Shown here piece by piece: positions 4,605-11,941 of a DNA stretch of 64,000 nt. Origin of the DNA: Mesorhizobium sp. DCY119 (GTDB taxonomy: Bacteria; Pseudomonadota; Alphaproteobacteria; Rhizobiales; Rhizobiaceae); the NCBI RefSeq assembly GCF_003590645.1, contig NZ_CP031834.1, positions 496,001 to 560,000 on the forward strand, read 5' to 3'. Made by a program: the position numbers and the translations under genes. Under the pieces are notes generated by a model. That model worked only from the letters and a program-made list of their open reading frames with translations, did no database searches and was not told the DNA's origin. How positions within the stretch are numbered: the first letter of the stretch is position 1; every line of letters begins with the position of its first letter.

Positions 4605-4718
4605 CTACGCGGCCCGGCTCTCGAGCTTTCAGACAATCCGATAGACACGAAAGGGAATTTCTTAACGCCGGCCGGCGCATCATGGCCCGCGTAGAACCGC
4701 GAAGTTGCGGAGATGGAA

Positions 4719-6326
4719 ATGCGACGCTCCCGCATTATCGCGACAGGTGTCCTGCTGGCTTTGCTCGGCGCTGCAATCCCCATTGCCGCGATGGCCTATA
4801 TGTCGTGGGCGATTGCGGTGCAGAAGGAGCAAGCCCTCCTGACGCTGTTTGCCGATCGCACGATCGTGCGGGCGAACAACACCTTCCGCGAAGCGAAAGA
4901 CGCGCTCGATGCCGTCGAAGCCACGCCGTTCATCCCCTGTTCGGAAGAGCACATCGCGCGCATGCGGCTCCTCACGGTCAATACACCTGCCATTGAGGAA
5001 ATGGGGTATTTCGAAAACGGTTTCCTCAAATGCACGTCCTGGGGACAGACGGCAGGTAAAATCGCGCTGACGCCTGCAGACTATGTGACGCCGGACGGGC
5101 TGGACGTGAAATTGCGGATAGCGCCGCGGGTCACCCGAGGCAACCCGATGATGGCTCTGCGTCGTGGCAGGCACAATGTTCTCGTCGTGCCCTCACGCTT
5201 TGTCGATGTCCTGGTCGACGACAGCATGTCGCTGGCGCTGACCAACGACCAGGGCACGCTGATCGATACGCTCAACGCCCCGGACGCAGCGCTCGTCAAA
5301 TCCGCGATCGGCAATCCGCAGGACGGCATGACCGACGACGCACTGTACGCCGTGGCGCGCGACACCGGCCTTGTCGCGGTCGTCACCGAACCGAAAGCGA
5401 AACTCGCCGGCAAACTTCGACAGGAGCAAATGTTTCTCCTGCCCATCGGGGCATTCATCGCGGCCTTCATCGTCGGCGTCGTCGTCTGGCTGTCGCGAAA
5501 ACAGCTTTCGCCGCTGGGTGAGCTTGCGATCGCCGTGCGCAATCGCGAATTCATCGTGCACTACCAGCCTATCGTCGAACTCAAGTCCGGCATATGCGTC
5601 GGCGCGGAGGCGCTGGTGCGCTGGAAGCGCCCCGATGGCAGCATCGTCCGCCCCGATCTGTTCATTCCGCTGGCGGAAGAGAGCGGCCTGATCATGCCGA
5701 TCACCGATCAGGTTTTCGAGGCCATCGTCTTCGACCTGAACCGGATGCTGGTCGAGGACCGTACGCTCCACATCGCCATCAACATCTGCGCCGCCGACAT
5801 CAAGTCCGGCCGAATTCTCGATTTCATAGAAGACAGGCTGCGCCACACCGGCATCAGGCCGACGCAGATATGGCTGGAGGCGACCGAGCGCGGCTTCATC
5901 GACATCGACGCCGCGCGCGTGACGCTCGGCCGGGCGCGCGCGTTCGGTCATTCGGTGGCGATCGACGATTTCGGCACCGGCTATTCCAGCCTGCAATATC
6001 TCCAGGGCCTGCCGATGGATGCGCTGAAAATCGACAAGTCCTTCGTCGACACGGTCGGCAAGAACACGGCCACAAGCTCGGTGACGTCCCACATCATCGA
6101 CATGGCGAAGGCGCTCGGCCTCTATACGGTGGCGGAGGGCATCGAGACCGCAGGACAGGCGGACTACCTCAAAGCGCAGGGCGTCGATTTCGGGCAGGGA
6201 TGGCTGTTCTCCAGGGCGCTGCCTGCCGCCGAATTCATCGCCTATCATCGCCGCAGCAAGGAGACTTACGGCACGGCGCCCGAGGTCATTCAGGTGCTGG
6301 CCGTTGCCGGATCGGCCCGAGGCTGA
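4719..6326 (+). CDS. CSS-motif sensor EAL-domain c-di-GMP phosphodiesterase
   Basis: Membrane-bound enzyme predicted to hydrolyse cyclic di-GMP to pGpG. The order is TM1 (about residues 6-28), a periplasmic CSS-type sensor domain, TM2 (about 240-261) and a cytoplasmic EAL domain (about 272-520). The sensor carries paired cysteines near residue 74 (PCSEEHI) and 105 (LKCTSWG), as in E. coli PdeC-type proteins where periplasmic disulfide state controls activity; the second motif reads CTS. The EAL domain keeps EALVRW, the N-rich metal site, IDDFGTGYSSL, the K of LKIDKSF and the E of VAEGIE, so it should be active. ATG 4719 has GGAG 6 nt upstream; ATG 4713 has no spacing. Confidence 0.9.
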   Translation: MRRSRIIATGVLLALLGAAIPIAAMAYMSWAIAVQKEQALLTLFADRTIVRANNTFREAKDALDAVEATPFIPCSEEHIARMRLLTVNTPAIEEMGYFENGFLKCTSWGQTAGKIALTPADYVTPDGLDVKLRIAPRVTRGNPMMALRRGRHNVLVVPSRFVDVLVDDSMSLALTNDQGTLIDTLNAPDAALVKSAIGNPQDGMTDDALYAVARDTGLVAVVTEPKAKLAGKLRQEQMFLLPIGAFIAAFIVGVVVWLSRKQLSPLGELAIAVRNREFIVHYQPIVELKSGICVGAEALVRWKRPDGSIVRPDLFIPLAEESGLIMPITDQVFEAIVFDLNRMLVEDRTLHIAINICAADIKSGRILDFIEDRLRHTGIRPTQIWLEATERGFIDIDAARVTLGRARAFGHSVAIDDFGTGYSSLQYLQGLPMDALKIDKSFVDTVGKNTATSSVTSHIIDMAKALGLYTVAEGIETAGQADYLKAQGVDFGQGWLFSRALPAAEFIAYHRRSKETYGTAPEVIQVLAVAGSARG

Positions 6327-6360
6327 TAAAGCACGGCGCATTCATTCACGGGGCAAGACC

Positions 6361-6390
6361 ATGGGACCCACCAAGTCAGCAGACAAGTAA
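6361..6390 (+). CDS. cmlA-type leader peptide MGPTKSADK (attenuator)
   Basis: Nine-codon open frame ATG...AAG-TAA encoding MGPTKSADK, ending one base before a strong hairpin and about 118 nt upstream of the phenicol exporter start. It resembles the CmlA attenuator peptide MSTSKNADK in length and in the K-x-A-D-K ending (established knowledge: ribosomes stall on that leader when chloramphenicol is bound, opening the RNA downstream). A GGGG run at 6350-6353 could serve as ribosome site. Too short for ordinary gene finders. The match was read by eye and not tested by search. Confidence 0.7.
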   Translation: MGPTKSADK

Positions 6391-6418
6391 GCCGCAGCAA
6401 CTCGACTGTTGTTGCGGC
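6391..6418 (+). promoter_or_regulatory. attenuator hairpin after leader peptide
   Basis: Inverted repeat GCCGCAGCAAC - TCGACT - GTTGTTGCGGC, an 11-bp stem with one G-U pair and a 6-nt loop, beginning immediately after the leader stop codon. There is no T-run, so a terminator is unlikely. A ribosome stalled on the last leader codons would cover its 5' arm. A weaker stem (AGATC 6467-6471 with GATCT 6479-6483) lies nearer the exporter start. Which one masks the exporter ribosome site is not resolved. Confidence 0.6.
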
Positions 6419-6508
6419 GTCTGTCCCGTCATTCCCGGTTTGAAATACCGACCCTAAAGGGAAGGCAGATCGCCGCCAGATCTTACCCATTTGAGCGGAT
6501 GCATAATC

Positions 6509-7720
6509 GTGCCTTATCAAAACTCCCCTTCTCCCACGCCGAAGGCGTGGAACTACGCCCTGCCCTCAGCCCTGCTGCTGATGGCGCCCTTCGACATCCT
6601 GGCCTCGCTGGCCATGGATATTTACCTCCCGTTCGTTCCGGCGATGCCCGGCATCCTCGGCACCACGCCGGCGGTCGTGCAACTGACGCTGAGCCTCTAC
6701 ATGATCATGCTCGGGCTCGGCCAGATCGTCTTCGGGCCTATCTCCGATCGCATCGGCCGCCGTCCGGTGCTGATCGGCGGGGCGCTGCTCTTTGCGGCGA
6801 GTTCGTTCCTGCTTGCCGGCACCTCGTCGGCTGCGATCTTCGTCGTGCTGCGCCTGCTGCAGGCGGCGGGCGCGTCGGCGGCACTGGTCGCCACCTTTGC
6901 CACGGTTCGCGATGTCTATGCCGAGCGGCCGGAAGGTGCTGTCATCTACAGCCTGTTCAGCTCCATGCTGGCTTTCGTGCCGGCGCTCGGCCCGATCGCC
7001 GGCGCAGTGATTGCCGATCATCTCGGCTGGCGTTTCATCTTCGTCACGCTCGGCGTGCTGGCAGTCTTGGCTTCGCTGAATGCGATGCCGCGATGGCATG
7101 AAACGCGGCCTGCAGGCACGTCGGCAAAGCGGCCGGCTTTCAGGCCGATCCTGAAGAGTTTTACGTTCTGGACCTACACGCTCGGCTTCAGTGCGGCGAT
7201 GGGCGCGTTCTTCGTCTTCTTCTCGACGGCGCCGCGCGTGCTTATCGGCCGTGCCGGCTTCTCCGAGATGGGATTCAGCATCGCCTTCGCCACCGCGGCA
7301 CTTGTGATGATCGCCACCACGCGCTTCGCCAAACGCTTCGTCGCGCGTTGGGGCATTGCCGGCAGCCTTGCTCGCGGCATGGCGATGCTGCTTCTCGGTG
7401 CGGCGCTGCTGGTGGCGGGACAGTGCTTGTTCGAACCGTCCTTCTGGACCTTTGTCCTGCCGATGTGGGTCATCTCGGTTGGCATCGTCTTCGCCGGCTC
7501 AGTTAGCGCAAACGGCGCGCTGCAGGCGTTCGGCGATGTCGCAGGTACTGCGGTCGCGCTTTATTTCTGCGTCCAGAGCCTGATCGTCGGTATCATCGGC
7601 ACGCTATTGGTCGTGCTGCTCGGCGGCGACACGGCATGGCCGCTGGCCGGCTATTGCATGGTCATGGCGCTGGTCACGCTGGGCATGCTCGCGCTGTTGC
7701 AAAGCCGGCAAAGCACCTGA
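6509..7720 (+). CDS. CmlA/FloR-like phenicol efflux MFS transporter
   Basis: Twelve-helix drug/H+ antiporter of the Bcr/CflA subgroup, very similar by eye to FloR/CmlA chloramphenicol-florfenicol exporters. It has the opening ALLLMAPFDILASLAMDIYLP, motif A (GPISDRIGRRPVL), the LATFATVRDVYAxRPEG loop and the motif-C-like SMLAFVPALGPIAGA. The matches run through the C-terminal half (FFVFFSTAPRVLIG, TTRFAKxFVARWGIAG). Predicted to export phenicols from the cytoplasm. Start: GTG 6509 with GAGCGGA 9 nt upstream is preferred; TTG 6491 is in frame, and no ATG precedes residue 25. The leader peptide upstream suggests drug-inducible translation. Confidence 0.85.
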   Translation: MPYQNSPSPTPKAWNYALPSALLLMAPFDILASLAMDIYLPFVPAMPGILGTTPAVVQLTLSLYMIMLGLGQIVFGPISDRIGRRPVLIGGALLFAASSFLLAGTSSAAIFVVLRLLQAAGASAALVATFATVRDVYAERPEGAVIYSLFSSMLAFVPALGPIAGAVIADHLGWRFIFVTLGVLAVLASLNAMPRWHETRPAGTSAKRPAFRPILKSFTFWTYTLGFSAAMGAFFVFFSTAPRVLIGRAGFSEMGFSIAFATAALVMIATTRFAKRFVARWGIAGSLARGMAMLLLGAALLVAGQCLFEPSFWTFVLPMWVISVGIVFAGSVSANGALQAFGDVAGTAVALYFCVQSLIVGIIGTLLVVLLGGDTAWPLAGYCMVMALVTLGMLALLQSRQST

Positions 7721-7740
7721 CAGAGCGCCGGACCAAACTC

Positions 7741-7830
7741 GACCCCCACTCCGTCTCGGCTTCGCCGAGCCACCTCTTCCCCGTTCGCAGGGGGGAGAGG
7801 TGTCACGCGAAGCGTGACGGAGTGGGGGTC
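7741..7830. repeat. cloverleaf palindromic intergenic repeat
   Basis: A perfect 15-bp inverted repeat (GACCCCCACTCCGTC, 7741-7755, with 7816-7830) encloses three further perfect hairpins: CTCGGC-TTC-GCCGAG (7755-7769), CACCTCT...AGAGGTG (7771-7802) and GTCACGC-GAA-GCGTGAC (7802-7818). It lies between the 3' end of the exporter gene and a convergent gene. Such compact multi-hairpin units are typical of rhizobial REP-like elements. Confidence 0.8.
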
Positions 7831-7897
7831 GACCGTACCGTAGGCGATTGCCCTGCCATAAACTGGGAGAAGGAGGCTGGCCGCAACGCTGACGACC

Positions 7898-7926
7898 CCC
7901 TCTCCCCGTCCTTCACGGGGAGAGGG
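7898..7926. repeat. REP-like hairpin
   Basis: Perfect 12-bp stem CCCTCTCCCCGT - CCTTC - ACGGGGAGAGGG in the same convergent intergenic gap. The core CTCCCCGT/ACGGGGAG recurs in the repeat at 11725-11888, showing a shared family. It may also act as a bidirectional transcription barrier. Confidence 0.7.
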
Positions 7927-7967
7927 TAAGGGTGAGGGGCATTTTCGCACCAAAGACCTGAAACGAT

Positions 7968-9068
7968 CTAGCCGATTCTGAGGAGATGATTATCCCAGAC
8001 ATAGTCAGCTTCCTCGACCGTCCCACCGTCGGCATCCACGATTTCGCCCGTGCCGGTGGTGGCGCGGAAGCCGGCATGGTCGGGCGCAAGCCCGCAGACC
8101 TCGCGCAGCGATTGGTCCGAGACGATCCTGCCGCTCGCCGCCTCGAAAACGGCGAAGGAATTGCCCTGCGGCGACGATACCGCGACCATACCGGCATCGC
8201 GGTTGGCGGCGACCGAGCCGATATAGTTGCGGAAGCCGCCGAGCACGTCTTCCGGCATGTCGAGAAGCTGAAGCCCCTTGCCGCGCTCGGCCTTGCCGAC
8301 GAGCGAAGGCTTTTCGGTTGCCGGGCCTCTGTGCTGGCAGCCGAACCAGATTGCGCCCGTTGCGTCCGTATCCATGTGGCGAATCGAAAGCTGGTGTAGC
8401 GCTGGGGGCAATTCATGGCTTTCGATCAGGTCGCCCGAGACGCGATCGACGAACACCAGCGACGGCTTCATCGTCGACAGGTTCATCTCGGCACGGCCGA
8501 AATCCGGATGGGTCTCGATGCCGCCATTGGCGATGGCCAGCGTCCTGCCATCATCGAGCAACAGCAGCTCATGTGGCCCGACGCCATGAGTCGGAAATTC
8601 GCCCAGCCGCCGAAAACCGTCGCGCGCATCATAGATGCCGACCATGCCGGCGGCGTTGTCGAAATCATTCTCGGTCGCATAGAGCAGCGCGCCGTCCGGC
8701 GAAAAGACGCCATGGCCGAAGAAATGACGGTCCGGCAGGCTGGCGACGGTCTGCGGCGCGGCCTTGCCGGTGGGGTCGAAGGCGACGAAGAAGGTTCCCG
8801 GCTGGCGCGCGAACACCACGGACTTTCCCGATATCGGATCGAAGGTCACGTCGTGGCCGCGGTCGGGCAGGTCGACCTGATGCAGCAGCTTGCCGGCTTC
8901 CGACAGGATCGCCGCGCCATAGCTACCGTCGCGCTTCTGGTAGGCGGTGGCAAAGACCGCGTCGGCATCCAGCGTTTTCGCCCAGGCGGCAGGCGCCAGC
9001 GATGCTGCAAAGGCAGCACCCGCAGCCTTCAGGAAGTCGCGGCGATCGATGAGCGGCGTGCGCATCAT
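7968..9068 (-). CDS. DUF1513 domain protein, Tat-exported (iron cluster)
   Basis: Predicted periplasmic beta-propeller-like protein of 366 aa. The N-terminus carries a twin-arginine signal (DRRDFLKAAGAAFAASLAPAAWA) with cleavage after AWA. The body has repeated strand patterns with HGVGPHE and RHMDTDATGAIWFGCQ stretches seen in DUF1513 proteins. The family's reaction is unknown; it occurs next to imelysin and DUF1111 genes and is thought to help iron acquisition. ATG 9068 was chosen because it follows the stop of the upstream imelysin gene by 2 nt and starts the Tat signal; the frame runs further upstream only as overlap. Confidence 0.85.
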   Translation of the reverse strand: MMRTPLIDRRDFLKAAGAAFAASLAPAAWAKTLDADAVFATAYQKRDGSYGAAILSEAGKLLHQVDLPDRGHDVTFDPISGKSVVFARQPGTFFVAFDPTGKAAPQTVASLPDRHFFGHGVFSPDGALLYATENDFDNAAGMVGIYDARDGFRRLGEFPTHGVGPHELLLLDDGRTLAIANGGIETHPDFGRAEMNLSTMKPSLVFVDRVSGDLIESHELPPALHQLSIRHMDTDATGAIWFGCQHRGPATEKPSLVGKAERGKGLQLLDMPEDVLGGFRNYIGSVAANRDAGMVAVSSPQGNSFAVFEAASGRIVSDQSLREVCGLAPDHAGFRATTGTGEIVDADGGTVEEADYVWDNHLLRIG

Positions 9069-9070
9069 GG

Positions 9071-10150
9071 TCAGTCCCCGTCGAGGGAGGAGAAACCCGA
9101 GGTCAGGCCGAGTTCGCCGGCGAGCCGCTTGCCGAAAAGTTCGCTCAGGCTCGACGTCACCACGCTGAGATAGGAGAGCCTGCCGCGCCGCTGCGGATCG
9201 GCCAGCACCTCGGTCAGCGGACCTTCCGAGCCCGCCGCTGCCCTGGCGGCATTGGCGAATTCGAAGTTGATGGAATTTTCGATCCACCGCATCTCATCGG
9301 AAAGCGCATCGCCAAGACCGGATGTTTCGAACAGAGCCTTCATGCCGGCCAGATTGCCGGCAACCGAATCGACCGTCTTTTCCGAGCGCCAGAACACCGC
9401 CTGTTTCGGCTTGTCCTCCGCCGCCGACATCTTGCCGAGGAAACCGCCCAGCCGCACGTCGCGGTCCATCTCCAGCCCGGTGACGAAGACGTCGAACAGT
9501 TCGCTCACCGCCTCGTCATTGTTGCGGTAGAGCGGATTGTTCGCGCCCGGCTTCGCCCACGTGCCGGCGAAACCGTCGGGCGCGTCCCACGCCTTCTCGA
9601 GCTCGCCGGCCATCGTATCGAGATTGATCGCGATCGATGCACCGAAGCTGCAGCGATAGGCGCCGTCGGTGCCGGCGAGCGTGTCCGCGTCCGTGCCGAA
9701 CAGCACGAATTCCAGCGCGCCGAGACCCTGCACGGCGACGCTCTTGGTCGCCAGCTTGGCCGGGTCGGCAGCGGTTTCGTCCTTGGACTGTATCGCCGCC
9801 TGTACCTGTTTCAGGCCGGTGCTCTTGCGGTCAGGCCAGAACAGGATGCGGTCGAGCCGGTTCTGCTCCGTTACCGGACCGAACCGGATGATCTCTGCCT
9901 TCGACCAGGCGTCGACGGTGCCGCCAAACGCCTTTCGCGCGCTATCGAGTGCTGCTTGCGAGGGAGCCGAGCACAATGCCTTGACGTCGCTCGACAGTTG
10001 CGACGTCGCCTGATGGAAGCCGTGATAGACGGGCCGCACGAAACCGTCGATGACCTTGCCGACGATCTTCGGCGCGTCCAGCTCCGCGGCGTGCGCGGCA
10101 GACTGGCCCAGCACGAAAAATGCAGCAGCAACCAAAACCCTGAACATCAC
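9071..10150 (-). CDS. imelysin-family protein (second copy), degenerate motif
   Basis: Secreted imelysin-like (peptidase M75/IrpA/EfeM) protein of 359 aa with an N-terminal signal peptide (FRVLVAAAFFVLGQSAAHA). Family landmarks are WSKAEIIRFGP and the motif region GLGALEFVLFG. The usual GxHxxE motif reads GLGALE here, so the histidine is lost. Family members act in periplasmic iron uptake and GxHxxE is a proposed metal site, so this copy may have a structural or altered role. Its ATG overlaps the stop of the di-heme gene by 4 bp, and the DUF1513 gene starts 2 nt after its stop: a tight operon. Confidence 0.85.
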   Translation of the reverse strand: MMFRVLVAAAFFVLGQSAAHAAELDAPKIVGKVIDGFVRPVYHGFHQATSQLSSDVKALCSAPSQAALDSARKAFGGTVDAWSKAEIIRFGPVTEQNRLDRILFWPDRKSTGLKQVQAAIQSKDETAADPAKLATKSVAVQGLGALEFVLFGTDADTLAGTDGAYRCSFGASIAINLDTMAGELEKAWDAPDGFAGTWAKPGANNPLYRNNDEAVSELFDVFVTGLEMDRDVRLGGFLGKMSAAEDKPKQAVFWRSEKTVDSVAGNLAGMKALFETSGLGDALSDEMRWIENSINFEFANAARAAAGSEGPLTEVLADPQRRGRLSYLSVVTSSLSELFGKRLAGELGLTSGFSSLDGD

Positions 10151-11673
10151 AGCGACTCCAGAAATTTCACCAGCGCATCGCGCTCGGTTTTAGACAGGGC
10201 GGCGAAGCGGTCACGCGCGGCCTGGCCCTCGCCGCCATGCCACAGGATCGCCTCGACCAGATTGCGGGCGCGACCATCATGCAGGAAGAAGGTGTGACCG
10301 TTGACGCGCTTGGTCAGGCCGATGCCCCACAGCGGCGCGGTGCGCCATTCATTGCCCGTCGCATCGCCCACCTGCTGCCCGTCCGCCAGCCCGTCGCCCA
10401 TGTCGTGCAGCAAAAGGTCGGTATAGGGCCATATCAGCTGGAAGGACTGCGCCTTGTTGGGTGCATCGCGACGGGTGACGAATTTCGGCGTGTGGCAGGA
10501 GGCGCAGCCGCTTTCGTAAAACACCTTCTTGCCGGCCAGCACGTCGGCCTTGCCGACATCGCGGCGGGCCGGCACGGCGAGGTTCTGCGAATAGAAGGTG
10601 ACGAGGTCGAGGATCGGGTCCGGCGCTTCGGTGTCGCCCAGCCGCTCCTGCACGCCGTTCGGCATGGCTAGGCATTTTTCCTGCGCTACCGTGCAATCAC
10701 CCCAGTGGTTCGGCACGTCGGGATTGGAGATTCCGATATCGCCGGCGAAGGCTTCCGCCGACTGGCGCCTTATCGACGGGGTCGATGCCTTCCAGCCGAA
10801 ACGGCCGAGCGTCAGCTCGCCGGTCTTGTGGTCGCGCACGATCGAGGCTTTGCCCGATATGCCGTCGCCGTCCTTGTCGTCGGGATCGGCGCGGGCGAGG
10901 ATATCGGCGGGGTGGATCTGCTCGAGCAGGCCGAGGCCGATCATCTGGGGCGTAACGCGCGGCGACAGCGTGACGCGCGGGTCGATCGGCCCCTGCGCCA
11001 GATTTGTCACCGAATAGGTCGGCTTGCGCAGCGAAACGACCGTACCGTCGGCCAGCGTCACCGGCTGTTCCTCGTAGGAGATCGCCATCTTGCCTTCGCC
11101 GGCGAGACCCGGAACGGCAAGATCCTGCAACTGCCCGCCATAGACCGGATCGGGGAAATTCAGCGCCGTCTTGTGCGCTATGGCCGCCTTTTCCTCGTCG
11201 GTCTCGGCCTGACGGGCCAGGCGCAGGAACATCGAGGTCGCGTCCGGGTTGCCTTCCGGCGGATGGCCGCGCCCGTCCTTCAGGTGGCAGCTCTGGCAGG
11301 CGCGGGCGTTGAACAGCGGACCGAGCCCGTCGGAGGCCTGCGTCGAGGATGGCGACGACACCCACAGCTTGCGAAACAGCGCATTGCCGAGCTTGAAGGT
11401 GCCTTCTTCCTCGAAGGTGATGTTGGCGGAAAACTGCGAGAACGCGTCCTGGTTGACGCGCTTGCGCGACGTGCCTGCGCCGCCCTGCATCTGCTCGAAT
11501 TCTTCCGGCTTGGAAAAATCGCCCGTCGGCTTGGTGATCGCCTCGACGCGGCCAAGGTCATTGGGGTTGAGATCGCTGCGCGTGGTGGCAAGGCCGGCGG
11601 GTTCGGCCTCGCCAGCATGGGCGGGCGCGGTGAGAAGGGCCGCACAGACAATCAGAAGCGCGCGAAAAAACAC
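10147..11673 (-). CDS. di-heme oxidoreductase family protein (DUF1111)
   Basis: Periplasmic c-type cytochrome of the DUF1111 thiol oxidoreductase/di-heme family, found with imelysins in iron-uptake loci. Two heme-attachment motifs are present, CQSCH and CASCH, with the expected long spacing; a helical segment between them includes LGRFGWKASTPSI. The signal peptide reads FFRALLIVCAALLTAPAHA. No ATG exists in this frame before the signal; GTG 11673 is the only plausible in-frame start. An ATG with an excellent ribosome site lies at 11714 in another frame and would join this frame with one extra T in a run of six (see findings). Confidence 0.85.
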   Translation of the reverse strand: MFFRALLIVCAALLTAPAHAGEAEPAGLATTRSDLNPNDLGRVEAITKPTGDFSKPEEFEQMQGGAGTSRKRVNQDAFSQFSANITFEEEGTFKLGNALFRKLWVSSPSSTQASDGLGPLFNARACQSCHLKDGRGHPPEGNPDATSMFLRLARQAETDEEKAAIAHKTALNFPDPVYGGQLQDLAVPGLAGEGKMAISYEEQPVTLADGTVVSLRKPTYSVTNLAQGPIDPRVTLSPRVTPQMIGLGLLEQIHPADILARADPDDKDGDGISGKASIVRDHKTGELTLGRFGWKASTPSIRRQSAEAFAGDIGISNPDVPNHWGDCTVAQEKCLAMPNGVQERLGDTEAPDPILDLVTFYSQNLAVPARRDVGKADVLAGKKVFYESGCASCHTPKFVTRRDAPNKAQSFQLIWPYTDLLLHDMGDGLADGQQVGDATGNEWRTAPLWGIGLTKRVNGHTFFLHDGRARNLVEAILWHGGEGQAARDRFAALSKTERDALVKFLESL

Positions 11674-11724
11674 GCGTTTTTGTGGATCCCGCTTCTGGGG
11701 AAAAGCGCGGTCATTGCGGCAGTC

Positions 11725-11888
11725 CTCCCTCTCCCCGTTTACGGGGGTCCGAAGGACGGGTTGAGACCCGTGGCTCGACCCCGGTCGATGCCGGCAGGCA
11801 GGTGAGGGGCGGGATAAGACGTCGGATGGTTGGCGTCGCCCCTCATCCGGCCCTTCGGGCCACCTTCTCCCCGTAAACGGGGAGAAGG
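11725..11888. repeat. REP-like palindrome cluster
   Basis: Intergenic repeat with hairpins CCTTCTCCCCGT-AA-ACGGGGAGAAGG (11863-11888), GGCCC-TTC-GGGCC (11849-11861) and a left arm CCTCTCCCCGTTTACGGGG that mirrors the right end. It separates bfr from the di-heme gene. It shares its core with the hairpin at 7898-7926. Confidence 0.7.
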
Positions 11889-11941
11889 AATAGCTCGCGC
11901 TGCGGCGCGTCAAATTGTAGGCGCGCCGCATTGTCTCATGC

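Follow-up and report, generated by a model that had tools for sequence, protein, structure and literature searches.

A candidate translational attenuator of the cmlA/floR kind before a chromosomal phenicol exporter gene of Mesorhizobium and its recurrence across the exporter family

The window analysed here is a stretch of 64,000 nucleotides from Mesorhizobium sp. DCY119 (contig NZ_CP031834.1, positions 496,001 to 560,000). It contains a gene for a phenicol exporter that matches the CmlA/FloR equivalog model NF033134 with 646.7 bits (cut-off 450) and is the sole gene in its genome above that cut-off. The protein is 49% identical to CmlA1 and about 69% identical to FloR. The region is syntenic with a sister genome, with ~92% DNA identity across roughly 20 kb and small gaps, which argues for a stable chromosomal location. 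On the upstream side, a gene for a CSS-motif/EAL cyclic-di-GMP phosphodiesterase (4713-6326) stops 34 nt 5' of the leader described below, so that the exporter could be co-transcribed with it; a search of 6100-6520 matched no sigma-70-like promoter, a pattern that rhizobial promoters may not fit. Just 3' of the exporter lie long imperfect palindromes (7739-7832 and 7896-7950) of a kind known between rhizobial genes. They are followed by a minus-strand gene group (7968-11931) with a DUF1513 protein and, as judged by eye, imelysin-like and di-haem peroxidase-like genes, which looks iron-related.

The exporter start is best set at the GTG at 6509 by alignment with homologues, which have ATG at the same position; an alternative TTG at 6491 sits inside the ribosome-site hairpin. 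The original prediction had regarded a non-ATG start as fitting tight translational control. This suggestion was rejected and the GTG start was ruled out as a component of the mechanism, since ATG is the assigned start in 77 of 85 homologues.

A nine-codon frame, MGPTKSADK-stop, had been proposed to abut an 11-bp hairpin before the CmlA/FloR-like gene, and all of these features were confirmed at 6361-6418. The leader codons read ATG GGA CCC ACC AAG TCA GCA GAC AAG TAA (6361-6390). The hairpin begins at the first base past the stop codon and its arms, GCCGCAGCAAC (6391-6401) and GTTGTTGCGGC (6408-6418), pair at 11 positions, including a single G-U. The sister genome has the leader MGTTKSADK, and homologues are also purine-rich at the position of the leader's putative Shine-Dalgarno sequence. 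An Rfam scan returned sub-threshold matches only, none of them at the leader region. The features are collected in Table 1.

Table 1. Features of the exporter locus, in window coordinates
Feature	Position	Strand	Basis
GGGG, likely Shine-Dalgarno of the leader ORF (inferred)	6350-6353	+	7 nt 5' of the leader ATG
Leader ORF ATGGGACCCACCAAGTCAGCAGACAAGTAA, MGPTKSADK-stop	6361-6390	+	Same-place leaders in 65/69 exporter clusters (pattern-free sample)
Codons 7-9 as predicted stall site: Ala (GCA), Asp in the P site, Lys in the A site	6379-6387	+	A/S/T conservation at codon 7 and the rule in PMC8987054
Region 1, 5' arm of the leader hairpin	6391-6401	+	Helix 1:2 paired 99.2%
Region 2, 3' arm of the leader hairpin and GTCTGTC; pairs with region 1 or 3	6408-6425	+	Helices 1:2 and 2:3
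Region 3, GGCAGATCGCCGCC and following bases; pairs with region 2 or 4	6464-6482	+	2:3 pairing, 3:4 covariation
Region 4, CATTTGAGCGG, with the exporter's Shine-Dalgarno-like GAGCGG (6493-6498)	6488-6498	+	Helix 3:4
CmlA/FloR-family phenicol exporter gene, GTG start	6509-7720	+	NF033134 match

The window leader had been likened to the cmlA leader MSTSKNADK in length, end and place before a hairpin, and both integron cmlA1 and cmlA5 carry MSTSKNADK followed by the same hairpin. The same hairpin also follows the plasmid floR leader MGNSKSADK and the leader MGAQKSSDK of a Sinorhizobium gene. A scan with a leader-DNA pattern, covering one genome per GTDB species together with the window and reference loci, matched at least 126 places, of which at least 88 precede a CmlA/FloR homologue and have the hairpin. 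Among the other 38 matches listed, L087 has a floR-type leader whose downstream gene is lost at the locus edge, and the rest are without such a hairpin. For a pattern-free sample, exporters were gathered by protein family alone and clustered at 90% protein identity. They were present in 78 of 398 genomes of the family sample (26 of 108 genera), in 16 of 398 order-sample genomes and in 13 of 398 phylum-sample genomes. In 65 of 69 exporter clusters of this sample the stop codon of a mini-ORF abuts a GCCG hairpin. The original prediction had hinged on whether codons and hairpin persist in related genomes, and these clusters keep the leader abutting the hairpin. Judged by this comparison, the predicted attenuator is near-universal in the CmlA/FloR family, which is a new finding.

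The remaining four clusters belong to one genus (g97) and have an S-A-T-R core in leaders that run into the hairpin, such as MRKVESATRQP and MSTVESATRSAVNFII. Six loci of this genus (L217, L219, L220, L221, L222 and L223) have no stop codon before the hairpin, and reading continues into its 5' arm or loop. Such leaders would represent a variant in which the unstalled ribosome itself melts the hairpin. At one further locus (L224, G271:C7) a frameshift breaks the CmlA/FloR gene, with leader and hairpin still intact. In single genomes (L134 and L148 in G624:C3; L111), pairs of floR-type genes were seen in which both members have an attenuator of their own.

A covariance model (R1) was built from 48 rows, including the window, which as one of the training rows matches it at 100.6 bits. 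The model matched every one of the 13 exporter-bearing genomes in the phylum sample with E values of 1e-12 or better, a result that shows specificity more than independent discovery, because some of these genomes supplied model rows. The other 385 of the 398 phylum-sample genomes gave no strong match and two weak ones (L239 and L240), which were rejected as attenuators because they look like ordinary terminator-like hairpins. By the same model the element occurs once in the window's own genome.

The original prediction had pointed to a K-x-A-D-K end shared with cmlA. This end is not invariant across the family: in the 65 clusters the last codon varies among K, R, N, T and I, the second-last among D, T, V, E, R and A, and it is the third-last residue, at codon 7, that is invariably Ala (38), Ser (23) or Thr (4), with no others. 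Over all 85 leader-bearing clusters, a set that includes finds made with the DNA pattern, in which Ala or Ser was a requirement, the counts are Ala 55, Ser 26 and Thr 4. On the tree, 13 changes are needed at codon 7, all inside A/S/T. In simulations with the middle C fixed, the first base free and a similar number of changes, proline was missing from 9 of 819 and from 1 of 892 outcomes; given the tree, the rule thus holds up in a conservative test at roughly 0.1-1%. Chloramphenicol- and linezolid-dependent arrest is known to prefer a penultimate Ala, and Ser or Thr less well (PMC8987054). When the P site holds the second-last codon, the residue of codon 7 would occupy the penultimate position of the nascent chain. 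Codon 7, restricted to A/S/T, the residues favouring chloramphenicol arrest, is the kept feature of the peptide, and this finding is new. The preference is shared by linezolid, which leaves a reading in which the leader senses peptidyl-transferase inhibitors generally, for instance natural products resembling linezolid or other stallers that depend on A/S/T, and in which the natural inducer is not a phenicol. This reading is unlikely, because a CmlA/FloR exporter is the only type of gene found 3' of the element and the mobile members that have been studied are induced by phenicols (PMC5890775, PMC8876359).

Codon 7 Ala is always encoded by GCA, in GC-rich genomes, which points to some constraint at the RNA level too. 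Codons 7-9 could in principle be kept as RNA rather than as peptide if CAGAC of the leader paired with GUCUG past the hairpin and merely lengthened it, and in most members CAGA is indeed able to pair with TCTG. Yet some leaders end in A-T-R, A-R-K or T-V-R, without GAC, and still keep A or T at codon 7; moreover, many members have a T as its first base, which would be unable to pair, and none has a C there. An explanation by RNA pairing alone consequently has a slender chance of being correct, although peptide and RNA constraints on these codons may both be acting together.

The RNA of the element can be divided into four regions that form competing helices (Table 1). In an alignment of 48 diverse sequences, pairing reaches 99.2% in helix 1:2 and 87.2% in helix 3:4, and both partners have changed in four pairs of the former and in 7 of the 10 pairs of the latter. 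Taken together, 11 of the 21 pairs of these two helices changed on both sides, a number matched by 0 of 500 shuffles. Helix 2:3, which excludes both 1:2 and 3:4, is 87.7% paired in the 48 sequences compared with 29-56% in slid controls, a percentage that is partly built in because this helix was proposed from the same sequences. Its covariation is weaker with the 48 sequences, where 9 of 500 shuffles reached the score, and clearer with 81 sequences, where 0 of 500 did. Folding of the window RNA without a ribosome yielded 1:2 and 3:4, and with up to 16 nt blocked from the first base of codon 8 it yielded 2:3 instead. In the window, a modelled second structure over the ribosome site and an alternative 2:3 pairing are thus present. 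In 85 members, the mean predicted openness of the exporter start (-14 to +3) rose from 0.317 to 0.447 with a ribosome at codon 8, with an increase in 65 members and a decrease in 11; a ribosome placed on the leader start instead gave 0.371. In the window the gain is modest (from 0.39 to 0.49), and one floR-type representative shows none (from 0.26 to 0.21); folding therefore supports the switch and does not prove it.

Other leader-controlled resistance genes set a precedent for hairpins that work via transcription termination or mRNA stability, as in the transcription attenuation of mef/mel (PMC4335068), and not via uncovering of a ribosome site. Here, a terminator scan of the plus strand found none, and the covariation of 3:4 lies exactly over the Shine-Dalgarno region; such a mode of action is accordingly very unlikely.

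The arrangement as such is not very rare. In 906 kb of loci, seven unrelated cases of a mini-ORF abutting a perfect 10-bp hairpin were counted, ~1 per 130 kb, and it is therefore not the layout by itself but its conservation that is decisive. A chance mini-ORF beside an unrelated hairpin, which this frequency would allow, is already refuted for practical purposes by the retention of the layout in 65 of the 69 exporter clusters and in the integron and plasmid genes.

It is thus very probable that the window element is a translational attenuator of the cmlA/floR kind before a phenicol exporter. The comparison (65 of 69 clusters, cmlA1 and floR) strongly supports the original prediction of a cmlA-type attenuator at an intrinsic chromosomal gene. 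The leader, the hairpins, their conservation, the covariation of 1:2 and 3:4, the retention of 2:3 and the A/S/T restriction at codon 7 are computed directly. In the proposed mechanism, ribosomes would translate the nine-codon leader and depart when no drug is present, and hairpins 1:2 and 3:4 would form, the latter covering the ribosome-binding site of the exporter. A phenicol would arrest the ribosome when codon 8 occupies the P site and Ala is the penultimate residue of the nascent chain. The footprint of the stalled ribosome would then cover about half of region 1, so that the leader hairpin fails; region 2 could pair with region 3, region 4 would be freed and the pump would be made. We infer such drug-dependent stalling and induction in this organism. 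No paper on rhizobial chromosomal members was found in a literature search conducted without most subscription journals. The about 85 differing leaders constitute a natural set for testing which stall-site residues chloramphenicol needs.

In a tree of the exporters, integron cmlA1 forms a group with an Achromobacter homologue (L060), one from Saezia (L112) and another proteobacterial homologue (L181), with 100/100 support, floR falls inside a clade of mostly alphaproteobacterial genes, and the window gene belongs to a third clade, apart from those of cmlA1 and floR. The tree was rooted on distant Bcr/CflA proteins with branches of 4-10, one of which was misplaced and is probably mistranslated. 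With outgroups this distant the root is unreliable, and no direction of transfer is claimed from it. The attenuator is present in all three clades, which is most simply read as common descent predating the formation of the mobile genes. Drug-inducible control thus appears to be old and inherited and not an integron invention. The suggestion that the window holds the ancestral form of the integron control stands in part: the sampled family has the switch throughout, but cmlA1 groups outside the window's clade (100/100), so that the window gene is a relative of the ancestor. On balance we favour an old, family-wide and mostly vertically inherited phenicol switch, with A/S/T as its one strictly kept leader feature, from which the clinical genes were acquired ready-made, floR from alphaproteobacteria and cmlA from the Achromobacter/Saezia lineage. 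These results point to an origin before integrons for the inducible control of clinical phenicol-resistance genes, and to its presence in soil and plant-associated bacteria. In FloR2-type genes (L003 863-1000, L062 and L176), a cmlA-type 5' part with cmlA cassette sequence and MSTSKNADK continues as a hairpin and gene of the floR type. The joint lies inside the conserved leader/hairpin stretch, which suggests that recombination took place there.

In the inducible cat and erm leaders of Gram-positive bacteria, a drug-stalled leader ribosome likewise frees the start of the resistance gene. These leaders work alike but the genes are unrelated, and the peptides and RNAs of cat86 and ermC differ from those of the cmlA/floR type. 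For cmlA, the attenuator and leader-dependent arrest are established (PMC8876359, PMC10192921), and the translational attenuator of the cmlA1 cassette of Tn1696 (Stokes and Hall 1991) is treated in a review (PMC8876359). The window element resembles cmlA1 in its nine-codon leader ending K-x-A-D-K-stop, in the adjoining hairpin GCCGCAGCAAC/GTTGTTGCGGC, in the exporter family, in the second hairpin over the ribosome site of the exporter and in the GTG start. In contrast to cmlA1, the window gene is chromosomal, syntenic with the sister species and probably not a cassette, and is without a recognised upstream promoter. With floR it shares the nine-residue leader (MGNSKSADK in the floR sequences compared) and the 11-bp inverted repeat. 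The floR attenuator was described in 2017 as a leader and an 11-bp inverted repeat with 8-fold induction by florfenicol, and its authors noted no overlap between the stem-loop and the floR ribosome site (PMC5890775). Whereas that description stops at the stem-loop, the family comparison adds helix 3:4 over the ribosome site and the 2:3 switch. The ribosome site of floR is thus likely masked by the second hairpin, which is new here. This hairpin, unidentified in the earlier work, offers a possible induction route for floR, the main florfenicol resistance gene. The window element is an added chromosomal case of an attenuator type already reported for cmlA (1991) and floR (2017).
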